From assembly GCF_024199795.1 (NCBI RefSeq), contig NZ_JANADK010000001.1, positions 2,790,001 through 2,854,000 on the forward strand: a DNA stretch of 64,000 nucleotides, written 5' to 3'. The stretch is from Bradyrhizobium sp. CCGB01. Its GTDB lineage: Bacteria; Pseudomonadota; Alphaproteobacteria; Rhizobiales; Xanthobacteraceae. Made by a program: the position numbers and the translations under genes. A model generated the notes under the pieces. The model had not been told where the DNA came from, searched no databases, and saw only the letters and a program-made list of their open reading frames with translations. Of this stretch, positions 10,417 to 62,669 are shown piece after piece (position 1 is the stretch's first letter; every line of letters begins with the position of its first letter).

Positions 10417-10534
10417 TAGCCTTGCGGGTGCGCTAGGGTGTACTCATAAACCCGAATCAGCCTTGCGCGGAGGTAGGGCCCGTGTCCGTTTAGTCTTCAA
10501 GACCGGACATCGCCAGTTCGCCCTAGCTAGTCCG

Positions 10535-11333
10535 CTAAGGACCAGAAGCGGTCGTTCCAATTAAGTGGACAAAGGGCCAAACGGAAACGCACGATCTCTT
10601 CTTCAGCAACCATCTTTGCCGGCAACGCGTTTTTGGTTCTAACCAGCAGGCATTTGGCGCTTGATAAGCCTCAGGCGGAAGATAGGCGCGATAATGCTCG
10701 ACGTACCAATCACTTGTGCGCGCACACTGCTGAACGGCCTTGCGCCCGTTCATCGCCCCTCGCCATTCGGAGAGGCCGACGCAGCCGAGCGGCAGCCGGA
10801 ATTCGCTCAGCTGCTCCAAGGCGCCCACCTGCTCGAACCAGGGATAAAGCGCAATGTCCGTCAGGGTAAAGCGATCTCCGAACACATAAGGCCCCCCTCC
10901 GGGGGCGCTTTGCCATTAACTCGTTCTCGAGAAACCACACGCTATCGACCATCTCGGCAGCAAGCTTCCGTCTCGCTTCCTCTTCCCGCGTGAAGATGAA
11001 GCGGTGCGTCGCCGAATAAAGTCGATCATCGACAAACTTGACCCAGATCCGGGCATGCGCCCGATCGGGAAGCGAGGCTGGCATCAATGGCGGGTCAGGG
11101 AAGACCTCGTCGAGATATTCGCTGATGACAGCCGATTCCCATAGCTTGGCCTCCCCGTGCAGCAGCAACGGGACCCTGCCACAGGGCGAGATCCGCACGA
11201 AGCTAGCGGGCTTGTTCTTGAGATCAATCTCGATCGCTTCCGCCAAAACACCCTTCTCGGCGAGCGCTAGACGCACCCGGTGCGCAAAGGGGCACAGCTT
11301 AAAAGAGTAAAACTGAAGCATGGGTCCGGTCAT
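10535..11333 (-). pseudogene. Glutathione S-transferase, frameshift in a G6 tract
   Basis: The thioredoxin-fold half starts MTGPMLQFYSFKLCPFAHRV with the GSH-site cis-Pro segment GRVPLLL and ESAVI. After about residue 148 the frame is lost at a run of six G (10,892-10,897 on the + strand are C). The helical half resumes in another frame with VFGDRFTLTDIALYPWFEQV, an intact N-capping box motif. GSTs conjugate glutathione to electrophiles. The last codons and stop (10,535) lie in the conserved left end of element A, so the gene's own C-terminus was replaced when it became cargo. Slippage or a base-call error in the tract could restore the frame. Confidence 0.78.
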
Positions 11334-11353
11334 GTCTTTGGCCGCCTGACAGG

Positions 11354-11908
11354 TCATTCCGTCACGTCCAATCCACGCGCGATCGCGGCGACCTGCTCGA
11401 GCTTGACAGGTCGGACCAGTGGATCGGCGTGGCGGTGCGCCAGTTGCAACTCGGAGCCTGCCTTACGGTAGACCTCCGTTACGCGCAGCGACCAGTCTTG
11501 CTCGGGCAGCCCTCCCACCTCTGCAGTCTGCCGCTCGATCATGACGAGCACCACCATGTCCTCGCATGCGTAGGTCTGCAAGAGTTCCAGGTCGGTCTTG
11601 CCGTTGCGGAAGTACCGAGCCCGCTCCGCCATGCGCCCCGGGCTCATGTCGAAGCCGCGGCTCGGAGGGCCGCCGAAGGGTTGCATCAGGGTGAAGTCGG
11701 CGGCGATACGAACGAGATCTGACCAGCGCTGCATGTCGCCTCGCATGAACGCCGCATTCTTCTCGGCAGCCCGGGCCACCAGCTCCGCAACGGGTTCGGC
11801 GGCAGCCGCGGAATCGATGGAAAGGGAAGCGACTGCCGCTACCGCGAGCGCGGTACGCCTGGTCATCGCTTGTACCTGCTGGTCCTCATTGCCAATATGC
11901 TCTGACAT
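11354..11908 (-). CDS. SnoaL-like/NTF2-fold exported protein
   Basis: About 184 residues from the ATG at 11,908, chosen because AGGAC lies just upstream. The N-terminus has TRRTALAVAAVASLSIDSAA with AxA-type cleavage (twin Arg present, possibly Tat). The rest, from AELVARAAEKNAAFMRGDMQ on, follows the SnoaL/DUF4440 pattern of a cone-shaped alpha+beta barrel. No catalytic residues can be assigned. The GST gene starts 20 bases later on the same strand, and the divergent LysR gene at 12,043 probably controls both. Confidence 0.75.
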   Translation of the reverse strand: MSEHIGNEDQQVQAMTRRTALAVAAVASLSIDSAAAAEPVAELVARAAEKNAAFMRGDMQRWSDLVRIAADFTLMQPFGGPPSRGFDMSPGRMAERARYFRNGKTDLELLQTYACEDMVVLVMIERQTAEVGGLPEQDWSLRVTEVYRKAGSELQLAHRHADPLVRPVKLEQVAAIARGLDVTE

Positions 11909-11932
11909 TGCACTGTCCTGTTCAGTATTCGT

Positions 11933-11948
11933 GACGGCGATCGCCGTC
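11933..11948. promoter_or_regulatory. Perfect 16-bp palindrome upstream of SnoaL-like gene
   Basis: GACGGCGATCGCCGTC is self-complementary over all 16 bases and lies 25 bases before the SnoaL-like start, within its presumed leader. It may be a second regulator site or an RNA hairpin. Confidence 0.35.
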
Positions 11949-11989
11949 GTGGGTTCCTGGTCGGTTACCTGTCGATTTGGATTGCAACG

Positions 11990-12008
11990 GATGAGAGATG
12001 GTCTCATC
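11990..12008. promoter_or_regulatory. Probable LysR operator in element A
   Basis: GATGAGA (11,990-11,996) and TCTCATC (12,002-12,008) form a perfect 7-bp dyad with a 5-base centre, containing the T-N11-A core typical of LysR sites. It lies between the divergent LysR and SnoaL/GST genes. Function inferred from place and form. Confidence 0.5.
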
Positions 12009-12042
12009 TTGCACATGAAGCCAGTGATAAGAACTCAGGACC

Positions 12043-13029
12043 GTGCTGAACGCAGCTCAGCTCCTTCGCATCGATCTCCGTCTCCTCGTCTTGTTCAGCA
12101 CAGTGCTAGAGGAGGGCCATGTGGCGCGCGCGGCGCAGAGGCTCAATCTCACCCCGTCCGCGGTCAGCCATGGCCTGCGCCGACTGCGGCGCCTCCTGCA
12201 TGACCCGTTGTTTCTAAAGACGCCCAGTGGCGTGAAGCCGACGGACCGGGCGCGGGCGCTCGCGGGTCCCGTTGCCGAGTTGCTCACCCGTGTGGAAGGG
12301 ATCGTTTCAACGGCAGGACCATTCAATCCGAAAACCGCGCAACGCTGCTTCACGATCGGTGCGCCGGATGCGCTGGCGGCCGTCTTTCTCGGACCATTGG
12401 TTGCCTGCCTGGCACGTGAGGCGCCGGGTATCGACGTCCGGCTTCTGCAGCTGATGCCGCAACATCGCGGCAGGCCGACGAGCCAGGTCTGGCAGACCAC
12501 TCTGACGGAGATCGATGCGCAACGGCTCGATATTGCGGTTCTGCCGATCGGCCCGCCACCGCCTCGCTTCGCCGAGCGGCTGCTCTTCGAGGAGGACTTC
12601 GTCATTGCCATGCGAAAGGGGCATCCGCTCGCACGCAAGCCGAGCCTCCCGGCTTATCTAGCTGCGCGGCACATGCTCGTTTCGGCTATCGGCGATGCAT
12701 TGGGGGTCGTGGATGCCAAGTTGGCCGAGAAAGGACATTCGCGGCGTGTTGCGCTGACGGTACCGAATTTCATGATGGCTCTGGTGCAGCTGGCCGAGAG
12801 CGATCTGGTAGCGACCTTGCCCCGTCACCTGGTCGAGCGCCATGCCGCGCATTTTAATTTGGTTACGCGCGCGGTGCCGCTTCCTTGGACGCCTGATCCG
12901 GTGCGCATCATCACATCGCAGGCCGCGATGGCCGATGCCGGCATCGCCTGGCTGTTCGAGACCATCGCGCGCTGCATCGGCCTAGGCAAGGCGCCGCGCT
13001 CGGGAAAGGCGGCGCGGATTCGCAATTGA
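12043..13029 (+). CDS. LysR-family regulator (element A cargo)
   Basis: A 328-residue protein with GTG as start (no earlier usable codon; AGGA lies close upstream). The helix-turn-helix covers about residues 10-68 (VARAAQRLNLTPSAVSHGLR), followed by a NodD/LinR-type ligand domain. It is divergent from the SnoaL-like and GST genes with an operator-like dyad in between, so the element carries a self-contained regulated unit. The ligand is probably the toxic or xenobiotic substrate of the cargo enzymes; that is inference. Confidence 0.85.
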   Translation: MLNAAQLLRIDLRLLVLFSTVLEEGHVARAAQRLNLTPSAVSHGLRRLRRLLHDPLFLKTPSGVKPTDRARALAGPVAELLTRVEGIVSTAGPFNPKTAQRCFTIGAPDALAAVFLGPLVACLAREAPGIDVRLLQLMPQHRGRPTSQVWQTTLTEIDAQRLDIAVLPIGPPPPRFAERLLFEEDFVIAMRKGHPLARKPSLPAYLAARHMLVSAIGDALGVVDAKLAEKGHSRRVALTVPNFMMALVQLAESDLVATLPRHLVERHAAHFNLVTRAVPLPWTPDPVRIITSQAAMADAGIAWLFETIARCIGLGKAPRSGKAARIRN

Positions 13030-13310
13030 GCTCAGGACCTGCTGAGGACGTCGGCCTCCGCTTTCTGAAGACAGGCCTTGCTACCTATGTCGCACCTTGC
13101 ACCAGCGAGCCGGCGATGAGATTTGCCCTGTGTGCTTTTGGGGGGCGACGGGGAAGATGATCACGATGCTGGTGAGGTCCGGCGTGGGCCCAATAGATCA
13201 CTATCGCTTACTAGAGCGGGTGCTTCGGATCCGGCACACGCAGGCACCTTCGCCCTCCCACAGAAGTAGAGCGCTAAATTACTGTCCATCGAGCTTAGCG
13301 GGCCGAGCTT
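13030..13310. other. Non-coding interior of element A right side
   Basis: No credible gene between the LysR stop and the conserved right end. I see no further repeats in it. Confidence 0.4.
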
Positions 13311-13439
13311 GGTCCGCTACGGGTCACAAGCCGCCGACCACGCTCAAGCTGGCAGACTTCCCCTTTGTGTTGGTAAGCGGACGTTTATGAGTATGTGCCC
13401 TAGTACGATTCTGGAGCTTTTCGGCCGCTTGCGCAGCAA

Positions 13440-60524: not shown

Positions 60525-61556
60525 ATGACGCGGTGGATGCTTGGTGCGGTGATTGCGCTGTGGGTGACCTGTCCGGCACTCGCGAACAATCTCGATGCCA
60601 CCGCAGTGAACGACGCCGCGCGTCCGGCAAAACAGCCTGCGACCGACAAGGTCAACGCATCCGTTGTGAAGCTTCAGGTCATGCTGGACCGTGCGCAATT
60701 CTCGCCCGGCGAGATCGACGGCAAGCTCGGCGAGAACGCGCAAAAGGCGCTGAGAGCATTTGCCGAGCAGAACGGTATCGCATCCGACAAGACAATAGCG
60801 CCGGAGCTCTGGGAGAGATTGAGCGCGGCGAGTGAAGGTCCCGTTGTCGTCGAGTACAAGATCGCCGACACCGATGTGAAGGGACCGTTCCTGAAGGTGT
60901 TGCCGGGCAAGCTGGAGGACATGAAGTCGCTGCAGGCGCTGAGCTACACCAGCCCGCTCGAGGGGCTCGCCGAGAAATTCCACATGAGCGAGGATTTGCT
61001 TCGATCGCTCAATCCAGGCAAGTCCTTCGACAAGGCCGGCGAGACGATCATCGTTGCAAACGTTTCGGCACGGCGAGAGCTGCCACGCATTGTGCGGGTC
61101 GAAGTCGACAAGAAGAATGGGACATTGAAGGCGTTCGACGGGTCCGATCGTCTGCTCGCGTTCTATCCGGCATCAATCGGCAGCCCGGATCGCCCGACGC
61201 CGAGCGGCACGCTCAAGGTCACCAGCACCAGCGAGAAGCCGACCTACCGCTACAATCCCGACTACAAGTTTCACAGCGTCAAGTCCAAGAAGCCGTTCGA
61301 CGTCAAGCCGGGCCCGAACAATCCGGTCGGGGCGTACTGGATCGGCCTGTCGGCGCAGGGGTATGGTATCCACGGCACGGCGGAGCCCGACAAGGTCAGC
61401 AAGTCCGCGTCGCATGGCTGCATCAGGTTGACGAATTGGGACGTGCGCACGCTCGGCGACAACCTCAAGCGCGGCACGCCGGTCGTTTTCCTCGATGCGC
61501 CCACGGATTCGTCATCGAAGCAAGGGAAGCCTGCCGCCAGGCGCGCCGCGAACTAG
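60525..61556 (+). CDS. L,D-transpeptidase (YkuD) with peptidoglycan-binding domain
   Basis: A 343-residue exported protein; signal MTRWMLGAVIALWVTCPALA. A PG_binding_1-like domain (about 45-95, LQVMLDRAQFSPGEIDGKLG), a LysM-like stretch and the YkuD domain follow. The catalytic Cys299 is in SHGCIRL, with HGTAEP upstream of it. It forms 3-3 crosslinks. Its TAG stop is within the CTAG where element B is inserted. Confidence 0.92.
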   Translation: MTRWMLGAVIALWVTCPALANNLDATAVNDAARPAKQPATDKVNASVVKLQVMLDRAQFSPGEIDGKLGENAQKALRAFAEQNGIASDKTIAPELWERLSAASEGPVVVEYKIADTDVKGPFLKVLPGKLEDMKSLQALSYTSPLEGLAEKFHMSEDLLRSLNPGKSFDKAGETIIVANVSARRELPRIVRVEVDKKNGTLKAFDGSDRLLAFYPASIGSPDRPTPSGTLKVTSTSEKPTYRYNPDYKFHSVKSKKPFDVKPGPNNPVGAYWIGLSAQGYGIHGTAEPDKVSKSASHGCIRLTNWDVRTLGDNLKRGTPVVFLDAPTDSSSKQGKPAARRAAN

Positions 61557-61743
61557 GGCGTGTACTCATAAACCCGATCAGCCCACGCGGAGGTAGGGCT
61601 CGTGTCCGTTTAGTCTTCAAGACCGGACATCGCCAGTTCGCCCTAGCTAGCCCGCTAAGGGCCAGAAGCTGACTTAACGGTCTGCAAACCCTAGTCGTCA
61701 GAGAGCTGCCAGCTAAGAGGGTCCTCGTGCTACTTTAGCGGGC

Positions 61744-61974
61744 ATGTCACCCTTCAGCATTCGCTCCACCCTTATGCTCGTCCTCGTCGTCGGGGGCACG
61801 TCAAGCGCCTACATGTTCCTCGGCCTCAGCCTCGTCGTGGTACTGATAGCGTTGGGCCTAGCCTGCCTTGTATACGTTCCATTCGCTAAGAGCTACGGAT
61901 GGGGCAATGAGGGGCGTCTCACGAGACATCTCAGTCGTCCGCCATTCGAAGACGAAAGCCGCAGAGCCAGTTAG
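61744..61974 (+). CDS. Small two-span membrane protein (76 aa), cargo of element B
   Basis: From ATG 61,744 the product starts MSPFSIRSTLMLVLVVGGTS and has two spans (LMLVLVVGG... and LSLVVVLIALGLACLVYVPF) and a charged tail. No good ribosome site. Not recognised. Confidence 0.45.
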   Translation: MSPFSIRSTLMLVLVVGGTSSAYMFLGLSLVVVLIALGLACLVYVPFAKSYGWGNEGRLTRHLSRPPFEDESRRAS

Positions 61975-62007
61975 GCGCCAGAGCGTTCGTACCCTGGAGG
62001 AACAGGG

Positions 62008-62295
62008 ATGACTGTTTCAGAGGAAGTCCGAGTTTGGCGGTTTCGAGTGCGAGGCTTTGCGGTTGCTGGAGTTGTATGTCTCGCCCTGATTTTCTTGCTG
62101 AAGATTTTCGATCCAACCGAGTTCGTGAAAAGCTTCATTCGTCCGCTTGTTCTGCTTCTGATTTTCCTTTGGTTGTGCGGGCTATATTGCACCTACCGGT
62201 ATTGGACAGATTTTAGAGAAGATGAAGTCCGGCGCGGCGGATCAGAGCAAACCGCTCGCGCAAAATGGCTTAAACTGCACCCACCCCTTGGCTAA
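62008..62295 (+). CDS. Small two-span membrane protein (95 aa), cargo of element B
   Basis: GGAGGAACAGGG precedes ATG 62,008, a strong start. The product starts MTVSEEVRVWRFRVRGFAVA, with spans about 16-33 and 45-63, then a charged C-terminal part. Not recognised. With its neighbour it is the only cargo of the element. Confidence 0.6.
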   Translation: MTVSEEVRVWRFRVRGFAVAGVVCLALIFLLKIFDPTEFVKSFIRPLVLLLIFLWLCGLYCTYRYWTDFREDEVRRGGSEQTARAKWLKLHPPLG

Positions 62296-62393
62296 ATGCT
62301 GGATAGGCCGCTTTGGGTCACAAGCCGCCGATCACGCTCAATGTGGCAGACTTCCGCTTTGCATTCGCAAGCCGACGTTTATGAGTACACGCC

Positions 62394-62669
62394 CTAGTCT
62401 TTCGGGAAGTCCTTACGCATCGCGATCTCTGCGGCGTCGCCAGGCGACAGCACGGTCTGGTCGAACGCGGCTTGCGGCCTCGTCATGATGTCGTAGAGCG
62501 AGATACCCTTGATGGGCTTTCCCATGAGCTCGCGAACGCAGTCGGCGAGCGTGCCGTTGTAGACCAGATAGGGCGGACCTCTGTCCTTCTGTCTCTCGCC
62601 CTTCAGCGACGGCCACTTCTTCAACTCGGCCGGCGCGTCATAGGCGATCGGCGATCCCTCTTTGAACAT
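62394..62669 (-). CDS. Conserved hypothetical protein (91 aa)
   Basis: ATG 62,669; similarity-like reading continues upstream (TLPETK) without a normal start, so the true start may be earlier. Contains LADCVRELMGKPIKGISLYD, a segment I know from small Bradyrhizobium proteins of unknown function. Its TAG stop (62,394-62,396) lies in the right-end CTAG of element B. Confidence 0.65.
   Translation of the reverse strand: MFKEGSPIAYDAPAELKKWPSLKGERQKDRGPPYLVYNGTLADCVRELMGKPIKGISLYDIMTRPQAAFDQTVLSPGDAAEIAMRKDFPKD

Follow-up and report, generated by a model that had tools for sequence, protein, structure and literature searches.

The 64,000-nucleotide stretch of Bradyrhizobium sp. CCGB01 DNA analyzed here (the window; contig NZ_JANADK010000001.1, positions 2,790,001 to 2,854,000, part of a 9.3-Mb chromosome) contains two inserted units with inverted ends, copy A (10433-13403) and copy B (61553-62397). 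We assign a probability of about 0.86 to the reading that both are transposase-less members of a group of cargo-carrying transposons of the IS427 lineage, within the IS5 family of insertion sequences (IS), and that they were mobilized in trans at TA dinucleotides. This reading draws on observed features: the ends, the types of end module, the match of the ends to those of transposase-bearing units, empty insertion sites, and the diversity of the cargo. Both are members of an extensive family of small mobile units, present in Bradyrhizobium and related bacteria, in which the ordinary bacterial gene carried between the two kinds of end differs in most copies examined; the family looks like a general vehicle for moving genes. 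The parts of the two copies are listed below in window coordinates.

10433..10451, + strand: left terminal repeat of A, CTAGGGTGTACTCATAAAC, 19 bp; target TA at 10434-10435; an empty paralogous site exists
10433..10551, + strand: L-type end module of A (terminal repeat and subterminal part), with its inner boundary near GGACCAGAAGCGG
10710..11357, - strand: A cargo, glutathione S-transferase (GST)-like protein, 215 aa; Pfam GST_N families
11354..12016, - strand: A cargo, 220-aa open reading frame (ORF) without family or hit; partly conserved as DNA in many genomes of the genus
12043..13029, + strand: A cargo, LysR-type regulator, 328 aa; Pfam LysR_substrate and HTH_1
13308..13403, - strand: R-type end module of A, from the end-module comparison
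13383..13403, - strand: right terminal repeat of A, CTAGGGCACATACTCATAAAC, from the pattern scan
61553..61573, + strand: left terminal repeat of B, CTAGGGCGTGTACTCATAAAC; TAG doubles as the stop codon of an L,D-transpeptidase gene that lies upstream (60525-61556)
61553..61671, + strand: L-type end module of B, from the end-module comparison and models
61744..61974, + strand: B cargo, small ORF of 76 aa with a hydrophobic stretch, from ORF reading
62008..62295, + strand: B cargo, small ORF of 95 aa with hydrophobic stretches, from ORF reading
62306..62397, - strand: R-type end module of B, from the end-module comparison and models
62377..62397, - strand: right terminal repeat of B; its outer CTA doubles as the stop codon of a convergent ORF (62394-62669)

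Inspection of the sequence and a pattern scan bore out the coordinates and the inverted 19- to 21-bp ends given in an initial annotation of this DNA. The ends of B are perfect 21-bp inverted repeats (61553-61573 and 62377-62397), and those of A are unequal, with a left end two bases shorter than the 21-bp right end on the reverse strand. The 21-bp end pattern, with up to three mismatches, occurs three times in the window compared with 0.02 expected from shuffled sequences; the left end of A is not counted because of its gap. The shared subterminal parts, put earlier at about 115 and 92 bp, align over about 118 bp on the left and 92 bp on the right. As had been proposed, the interiors are unrelated, and ORF and transposase searches found no transposase ORF in either. 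The GST (PF13409, PF13417, and PF02798) and LysR (PF03466 and PF00126) assignments in A were upheld by Pfam, and the SnoaL-like label of the ORF between them was not confirmed, as the 220-aa product had no hit in Pfam, NCBIfam, or PDB sequences. The 76- and 95-aa ORFs of B may be read as putative membrane proteins.

The ends of A and B share their 20-bp core with transposase-bearing units. At locus L069 (genome G026), a 254-aa transposase has its last codons and stop codon within the right end. This protein belongs to the IS5 family (NF033580, 297.6 bits with a cutoff of 110; Pfam DUF4096 [PF13340] and DDE_Tnp_1 [PF01609]) and is ∼62% identical to plasmid proteins annotated as IS427 family. 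A match at an E value of ≤1e-60 is present in 59 of 146 Bradyrhizobium genomes, and a protein search gave 3,186 relatives at that threshold among 7,996 scored candidates. In 30 transposase loci (chosen by the transposase), the end repeat was found at the transposase C terminus in every case, and the stop codon lay within the right end in 28 (27 by an automatic rule and L100 by reading); the frame runs on in L101, and the stop falls just before the end in L105. The autonomous IS with these ends whose existence the initial annotation had supposed is, on this evidence, an IS5/IS427-like element, and such a transposase probably moved A and B.

Transposase-bearing units carry passengers too, since in 24 of the 27 loci for which longer stretches were available the transposase is preceded, at a distance of 1.1 to 9.5 kb, by a left end; in the other three (L230, L233, and L241), no left end was found upstream in those stretches. 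Within 900 bp upstream, no left end with up to four mismatches was detected in the 30 loci (upstream DNA of at least 540 bp each), and L122 has one five-mismatch match ∼0.2 kb upstream. No compact element of about 0.85 kb was seen among these 30 loci, and a compact IS of the genus was discarded as the source of A and B. Four of the 24 loci (L070, L071, L229, and L231) hold one 8.2-kb transposase-bearing unit, 99.96 to 99.99% identical in four genomes. We do not take it as proof of recent transposition: the left flank is common to all four genomes (100% over 4 kb between two of them, with the last 60 bp the same in all), so the unit counts as one insertion. In G005 its right flank differs, perhaps through another insertion beside it.

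Among plasmid records, 275 had a transposase match and 19 regions were opened. The left end lies 62 to 83 bp from the transposase in 5 of the 19 and 350 to 2,898 bp away in 11; in 3 it was not found within 5 kb. Cargo in the plasmid copies lies between the left end and the transposase and includes genes annotated as Crp/Fnr, DUF1254, VOC, SMI1/KNR4, and a Tdi1-domain protein. The simplest history is that a compact IS427-like ancestor gained cargo between the left end and the transposase.

Side-by-side reading of the ends revealed two kinds of end module, L and R, and profile hidden Markov models were built from 36 seed ends picked by eye. Among 44 units without an intact transposase, 35 scored as L-R, 1 as L-L, and none as R-R, with 8 undecided. 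Seed ends bear on how these counts are read: 24 units contributed a seed end, of which 12 were seeded at both ends, making them L-R by construction, and the 12 with one free end were all L-R; the 20 units without a seed end gave 11 L-R (L162 weakly), the 1 L-L (weakly), and the 8 undecided. A, B, and other units carry passenger genes without an intact transposase, and 2 of the 44 (L141 and L154) retain a C-terminal transposase remnant. In transposase-bearing units, the transposase-distal end scored as L in 17 of 19 (T239 and T248 by a small margin), the exceptions being T232 and T245. In 8 of 30 loci, a reversed R module was detected immediately 5' of the transposase gene (E ≤1e-3; best, 4e-8); the module is partly palindromic and gives weak matches on the other strand as well. 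This placement suggests that the R-type end arose when the transposase gene was lost and the sequence preceding it became joined to the right end. Alignment-based structure prediction gave six base pairs for L modules and none for R modules. Palindromic ATGTCCGCTT...AAGCGGACAT repeats in many L modules (e.g., window 61553-61671) look like the source of short spurious ORFs (MSALPPKAD-like), which we take to be common in Bradyrhizobium annotations.

In the mechanism that we propose from these comparisons, the full form of a unit would consist of a left end, an L module, one or more passenger genes, an R module, a transposase gene, and a right end containing the transposase stop codon. A and B would be the deleted form, which lacks the transposase, presumably by loss of its gene, and whose R module runs straight into the right end. 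An IS427-lineage transposase supplied in trans would bind both 20-bp ends and move everything between them, with insertion at TA, mostly within CTAG.

Precise insertion was examined by searching the joined flanks of 16 elements in 146 genomes of the genus, with two candidate places scored per genome. A junction-spanning match was found for at least 10 of the 16: A, B, the CCGB01 unit at 1098184-1099127, L136, L167, L168, L128, L135, L212, and L072. Among the matches listed, none spanned the junction for L014, L162, L209, L069, L071, or L067, an absence that means little. Nine of the ten elements (all except L212) were aligned with their empty relatives. The B site was empty in all nine relatives aligned (of at least 14 genomes matching), with CTAG in seven and CTAA in two; the empty sites of L136, L167, L168, L128, and L135 read CTAG or CTAA, the paralogous empty site of A in its own genome (7113678-7113801) reads CCAG, and the empty relative of L072 reads CCAA. 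The TA expected from the model of the initial annotation is present at the empty sites of six of the nine elements and not at those of A, L072, and the unit at 1098184-1099127. Taken over the set rather than unit by unit, the duplicated target is most likely TA. Duplication of the 4-bp CTAG is disfavored, although it may apply to single units: the outer bases differ between the two sides in units such as L072, L067, L152, and L191, which fits TA better. The flanks of L072 read CTAG on the left and CTAA on the right, and those of other units read CTAG/CTAA or CTAG/CTAC.

B lies at a CTAG that ends two convergent ORFs, both of which retain a stop codon after the insertion. Of 72 junctions with sufficient flanking sequence, 27 have an ORF of at least 80 codons that terminates at their TAG or TAA, and by the same rule 590 of 3,980 CTAGs (14.8%) in the fetched loci end an ORF; this contrast is only indicative, as unit ends and overlapping loci are part of the control and related sites (e.g., L155 and L164) are among the 72 junctions. 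CTAG is scarce in the window (55 occurrences against 216 expected from base composition). A preference for CTAG, a rare tetranucleotide with a stop codon within it, would place many insertions precisely where genes end and leave the neighboring gene its stop.

Elsewhere in the CCGB01 genome, the L and R models (partly trained on A and B) gave 60 distinct sites at an E value of ≤0.1, many of them weak and some lacking a terminal repeat. Ten L-R pairs spanning no more than 7 kb face inward, compared with a mean of 0.34 under random placement (largest, 3 in 2,000 trials); the other arrangements were 4 outward L-R, 7 same-direction, 1 inward L-L, and 1 inward R-R. A match weaker than an E value of 0.01 underlies three of the 10 inward pairs, and copy C, which is a duplication related to A, accounts for one. 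Further units are clear at 2770087-2772081 (sulfatase), 7172724-7174690 (ABC_sub_bind), and 8026264-8029635 (LysR and others), with more decayed terminal repeats. Copy C (L008, 2746319-2752058) does not qualify as an independent third insertion: 876 bp are common to it and A, and 777 bp of these are the left flank of A. In copy C, the duplicated left flank of A with 99 bp of A itself and 70 bp of the right end of A bracket a quite different interior of 5.6 kb, with ORFs read as IS110-like and cold-shock-like.

An exact scan of titled genome contigs for CTAGGGCGYGTACTCATAAA returned 105 stretches, mostly alphaproteobacterial: many from Bradyrhizobium, others from Tardiphaga, Mesorhizobium, Sinorhizobium, Nitratireductor, Roseibium, and Zhengella, and many from metagenome-assembled genomes, a few of which are labeled otherwise (e.g., Anaerolineales and Limisphaerales). 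Pairs of ends, one exact and the other with up to three mismatches, were inward in 27 cases, outward in 1, and same-direction in 3, an undercount because many of the stretches end early. At least one end match (up to two mismatches) occurs in 131 of 146 genomes of the genus; because a backwards control pattern frequently matches at this level as well, the count proves little by itself, and it is the test of orientation that is informative. The end modules of A had no match in plasmid DNA. The inward pairs, the units typed as L-R, and the empty sites sustain the earlier proposal of a family with fixed ends and mostly unrelated cargo.

The initial annotation had named an IS630-like (Tc1/mariner-type) enzyme as the mobilizing activity at TA sites. 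Duplication of TA is a property of the IS630 family and would fit this too; however, the transposase found between such ends matches the IS5_3 model, and all 30 loci picked by that transposase end in the repeat (IS630 transposases between the ends were not searched for as such). We therefore regard mobilization by an IS630-like enzyme as extremely improbable. It is also highly unlikely, in our estimate, that the ends are old repeated intergenic sequences that flank genes by chance and were spread by recombination rather than transposition. The weak L- and R-like sites of the CCGB01 genome and the sharing of flank and ends between A and copy C, as a segmental duplication, would suit such an origin, but empty sites of matching length exist for B and other elements, inward L-R pairs in the CCGB01 genome are far above random placement, and the same cargo with the same ends has different flanks in two genomes (the unit at 1098184-1099127 and L025). 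Finally, each cargo could be the product of its own later insertion into an intact IS427-like element, which would make the units the product of many accidents and not a cargo-carrying family; the initial annotation had given an intact IS with later cargo as the case against its own proposal. The compact plasmid copies make a compact ancestor probable, and for a deep ancestor this history may hold. In the units examined, though, the cargo occupies one place in the element and is bordered near the same motif despite being unrelated, and A and B themselves show no transposase; we judge such separate entry to be unlikely.

Several observations weigh against the reading of A and B as transposase-less members of IS427-lineage, cargo-carrying transposons. 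The junctions of the relatives of A and L072 show CA and not TA, and three relatives of the unit at 1098184-1099127 have neither TA nor CTAG. Upstream of the transposase, 22 of 30 loci show only a weak R-module match or none, and 8 of the 44 units could not be typed, with 1 scored as L-L. The right end at the transposase is mostly GGACTCAT, while A and B have TACTCAT at both ends, so that one enzyme would have to recognize both forms. The CCGB01 genome also has no close transposase: matches to the cognate enzyme occur at 13 places, none of them in the window, and the best is 38% identical, with a C-terminal remnant at 67%. Mobilization in trans would thus be without a resident enzyme in this strain, and its units look like residents from earlier activity.

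The border between module and cargo was analyzed with 39 pairs of related ends from different units, drawn from the full end lists. In 32 of the 39, the similarity breaks off no more than 18 bases from where GGGCCA (L) or TGACCC (R) begins, which places the break at, or slightly ahead of, the end of the AGCGGACA that follows; examples are A/B/L249, L064/L075, L209/L212, and B/L127/L260. The seven exceptions comprise L152/L153 (related cargo), L154/L141 (transposase remnant), L135/L061 (7 bases early), and four pairs stopping 19 to 27 bases in. With the ends anchored on the outer word only and the six ends lacking it set aside, the mean majority frequency over the eight positions of AGCGGACA was 0.72 for L (30 of 34 ends) and 0.71 for R (27 of 29 ends), falling further in to 0.37 and 0.36, respectively. 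The AGCGGACA region is the module border. A tentative explanation, which we consider possible but doubtful, is a cassette system without an integrase. Cargo would be swapped at AGCGGACA, which marks the inner border of both the L and the R module in opposite orientations, and one lineage would thereby have taken up and spread very many unrelated chromosomal genes. If so, it could have driven the expansion of the class III adenylate cyclase and ABC_sub_bind (PF04392) families, both of them recurrent cargo.

Cargo was classified by a Pfam run on 49 ORFs between ends (four from plasmids), the longest or most gene-like per unit, and on a few ORFs besides; 7 of the 49 had no Pfam hit. The families include isochorismatase, Cache, dodecin, PNPOx, GNAT, amidohydrolase, caspase domain, LCM methyltransferase, cytochrome c, EamA with TetR, L,D-transpeptidase, MFS, Na/Pi cotransporter, ArsA, TctC, O-methyltransferase, sulfatase, and PF00144 serine hydrolases. 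Class III adenylate cyclase recurs in L168, L193, L228, L064, and L242, and ABC_sub_bind recurs in L152, L153, L195, L246, and L399. Matching cargo is rare: four pairs among 64 interiors, compared without pairs in which both units bear a transposase, have at least 65% DNA identity over at least 500 bp. The cargo of the unit at 1098184-1099127 is 94% identical to that of L025, and the adjacent bases differ.

Some match to A (E ≤1e-30) is present in 62 of 265 genomes of the genus, with relatives of the LysR stretch at 75 to 81% in 12 of the 62 and of the middle ORF at ∼70 to 76% in many. G039 has the GST, middle-ORF, and LysR stretches in the order of A, and no L or R end was found in the 7.5 kb read. 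Among 36 loci scanned in this comparison, an L- or R-like match occurred only in L409 and L415. The cargo of A therefore looks like a captured chromosomal gene cluster.

Individual loci offered further observations. L155:3716-6095 and L164:2208-2952, from two Bradyrhizobium strains, occupy one and the same insertion site and resemble each other in their ends; one holds a 596-aa caspase-domain gene and the other, of 745 bp, lacks it, a possible loss or gain of cargo in place. L154:4395-5644 and L182:5042-6172, from a Rhizobiales isolate and Mesorhizobium, share ankyrin-cytochrome c cargo and similar ends at ∼82% DNA identity, a pattern that points either to movement from genus to genus or to long persistence. 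In L159, L174, and L061, the ends of two units abut or nearly so, and the outer ends could move the neighbors together.

If the reading of A and B given above is true, one lineage carries a different host gene in most of the copies examined, across Bradyrhizobium and other Alphaproteobacteria, and would be a largely unrecognized means by which plant symbionts duplicate and transfer genes. Because the cargo border is fixed, the ways in which transposons gain cargo can be tested directly.

Exchangeable genes at a fixed junction are familiar from integron gene cassettes, which this family resembles; here, in contrast, there is one cargo region per unit, and movement would be by a DDE transposase. 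Passenger genes are also carried by MIC231, a mobile insertion cassette (MIC). MICs are IS derivatives without a transposase that can be activated by a cognate transposase (PMC3129680, PMC3281130), and papers on MIC231 of Bacillus cereus are cited in PMC2266710 and PMC6542083. Like MICs, A and B are IS derived and encode no transposase, have the terminal repeats of a known IS lineage, and are precise insertions with target duplication (empty sites for nine elements). They differ in their IS5/IS427 parent, mostly different cargos, mostly two unlike end modules, and a distribution that is genus-wide and beyond. Transporter ISs (tISs) are IS copies that also bear passenger genes unrelated to transposition (PMC3129680, PMC9330008). 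This description fits the transposase-bearing units but not A and B; in these units, modules delimit the passenger region, which extends to as much as 9.5 kb. Elements of the IS427 group measure 832 to 865 bp, with 2-bp repeats in all but one (PMC3281130). An IS5-type transposase, short ends, and a 2-bp duplication (TA, as the best reading) are common to both; the IS427-group elements, however, are compact, some with two overlapping ORFs, whereas the Bradyrhizobium transposase is one ORF of ∼254 aa with cargo in front. Tn3-derived inverted-repeat miniature elements (TIMEs) and mosaic derivatives of the Tn3 family likewise have nonautonomous ends that mobilize varied DNA between them (PMC4133298), but with 38-bp Tn3 ends and 5- to 6-bp duplications; their complex elements resemble composite transposons, whereas one L and one R module bracket the cargo here. 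A literature search, with most subscription journals outside its scope, found no account of this IS427 lineage in Bradyrhizobium in the portions of text available. The claim of the initial annotation that no family of this kind had been described was nevertheless too strong: MICs and tISs are described kinds, and on our best reading this lineage comprises IS427-lineage transposons with passengers together with transposase-deleted, MIC-like derivatives. What is new here is the scale, the paired L and R modules, and the fixed cargo border.

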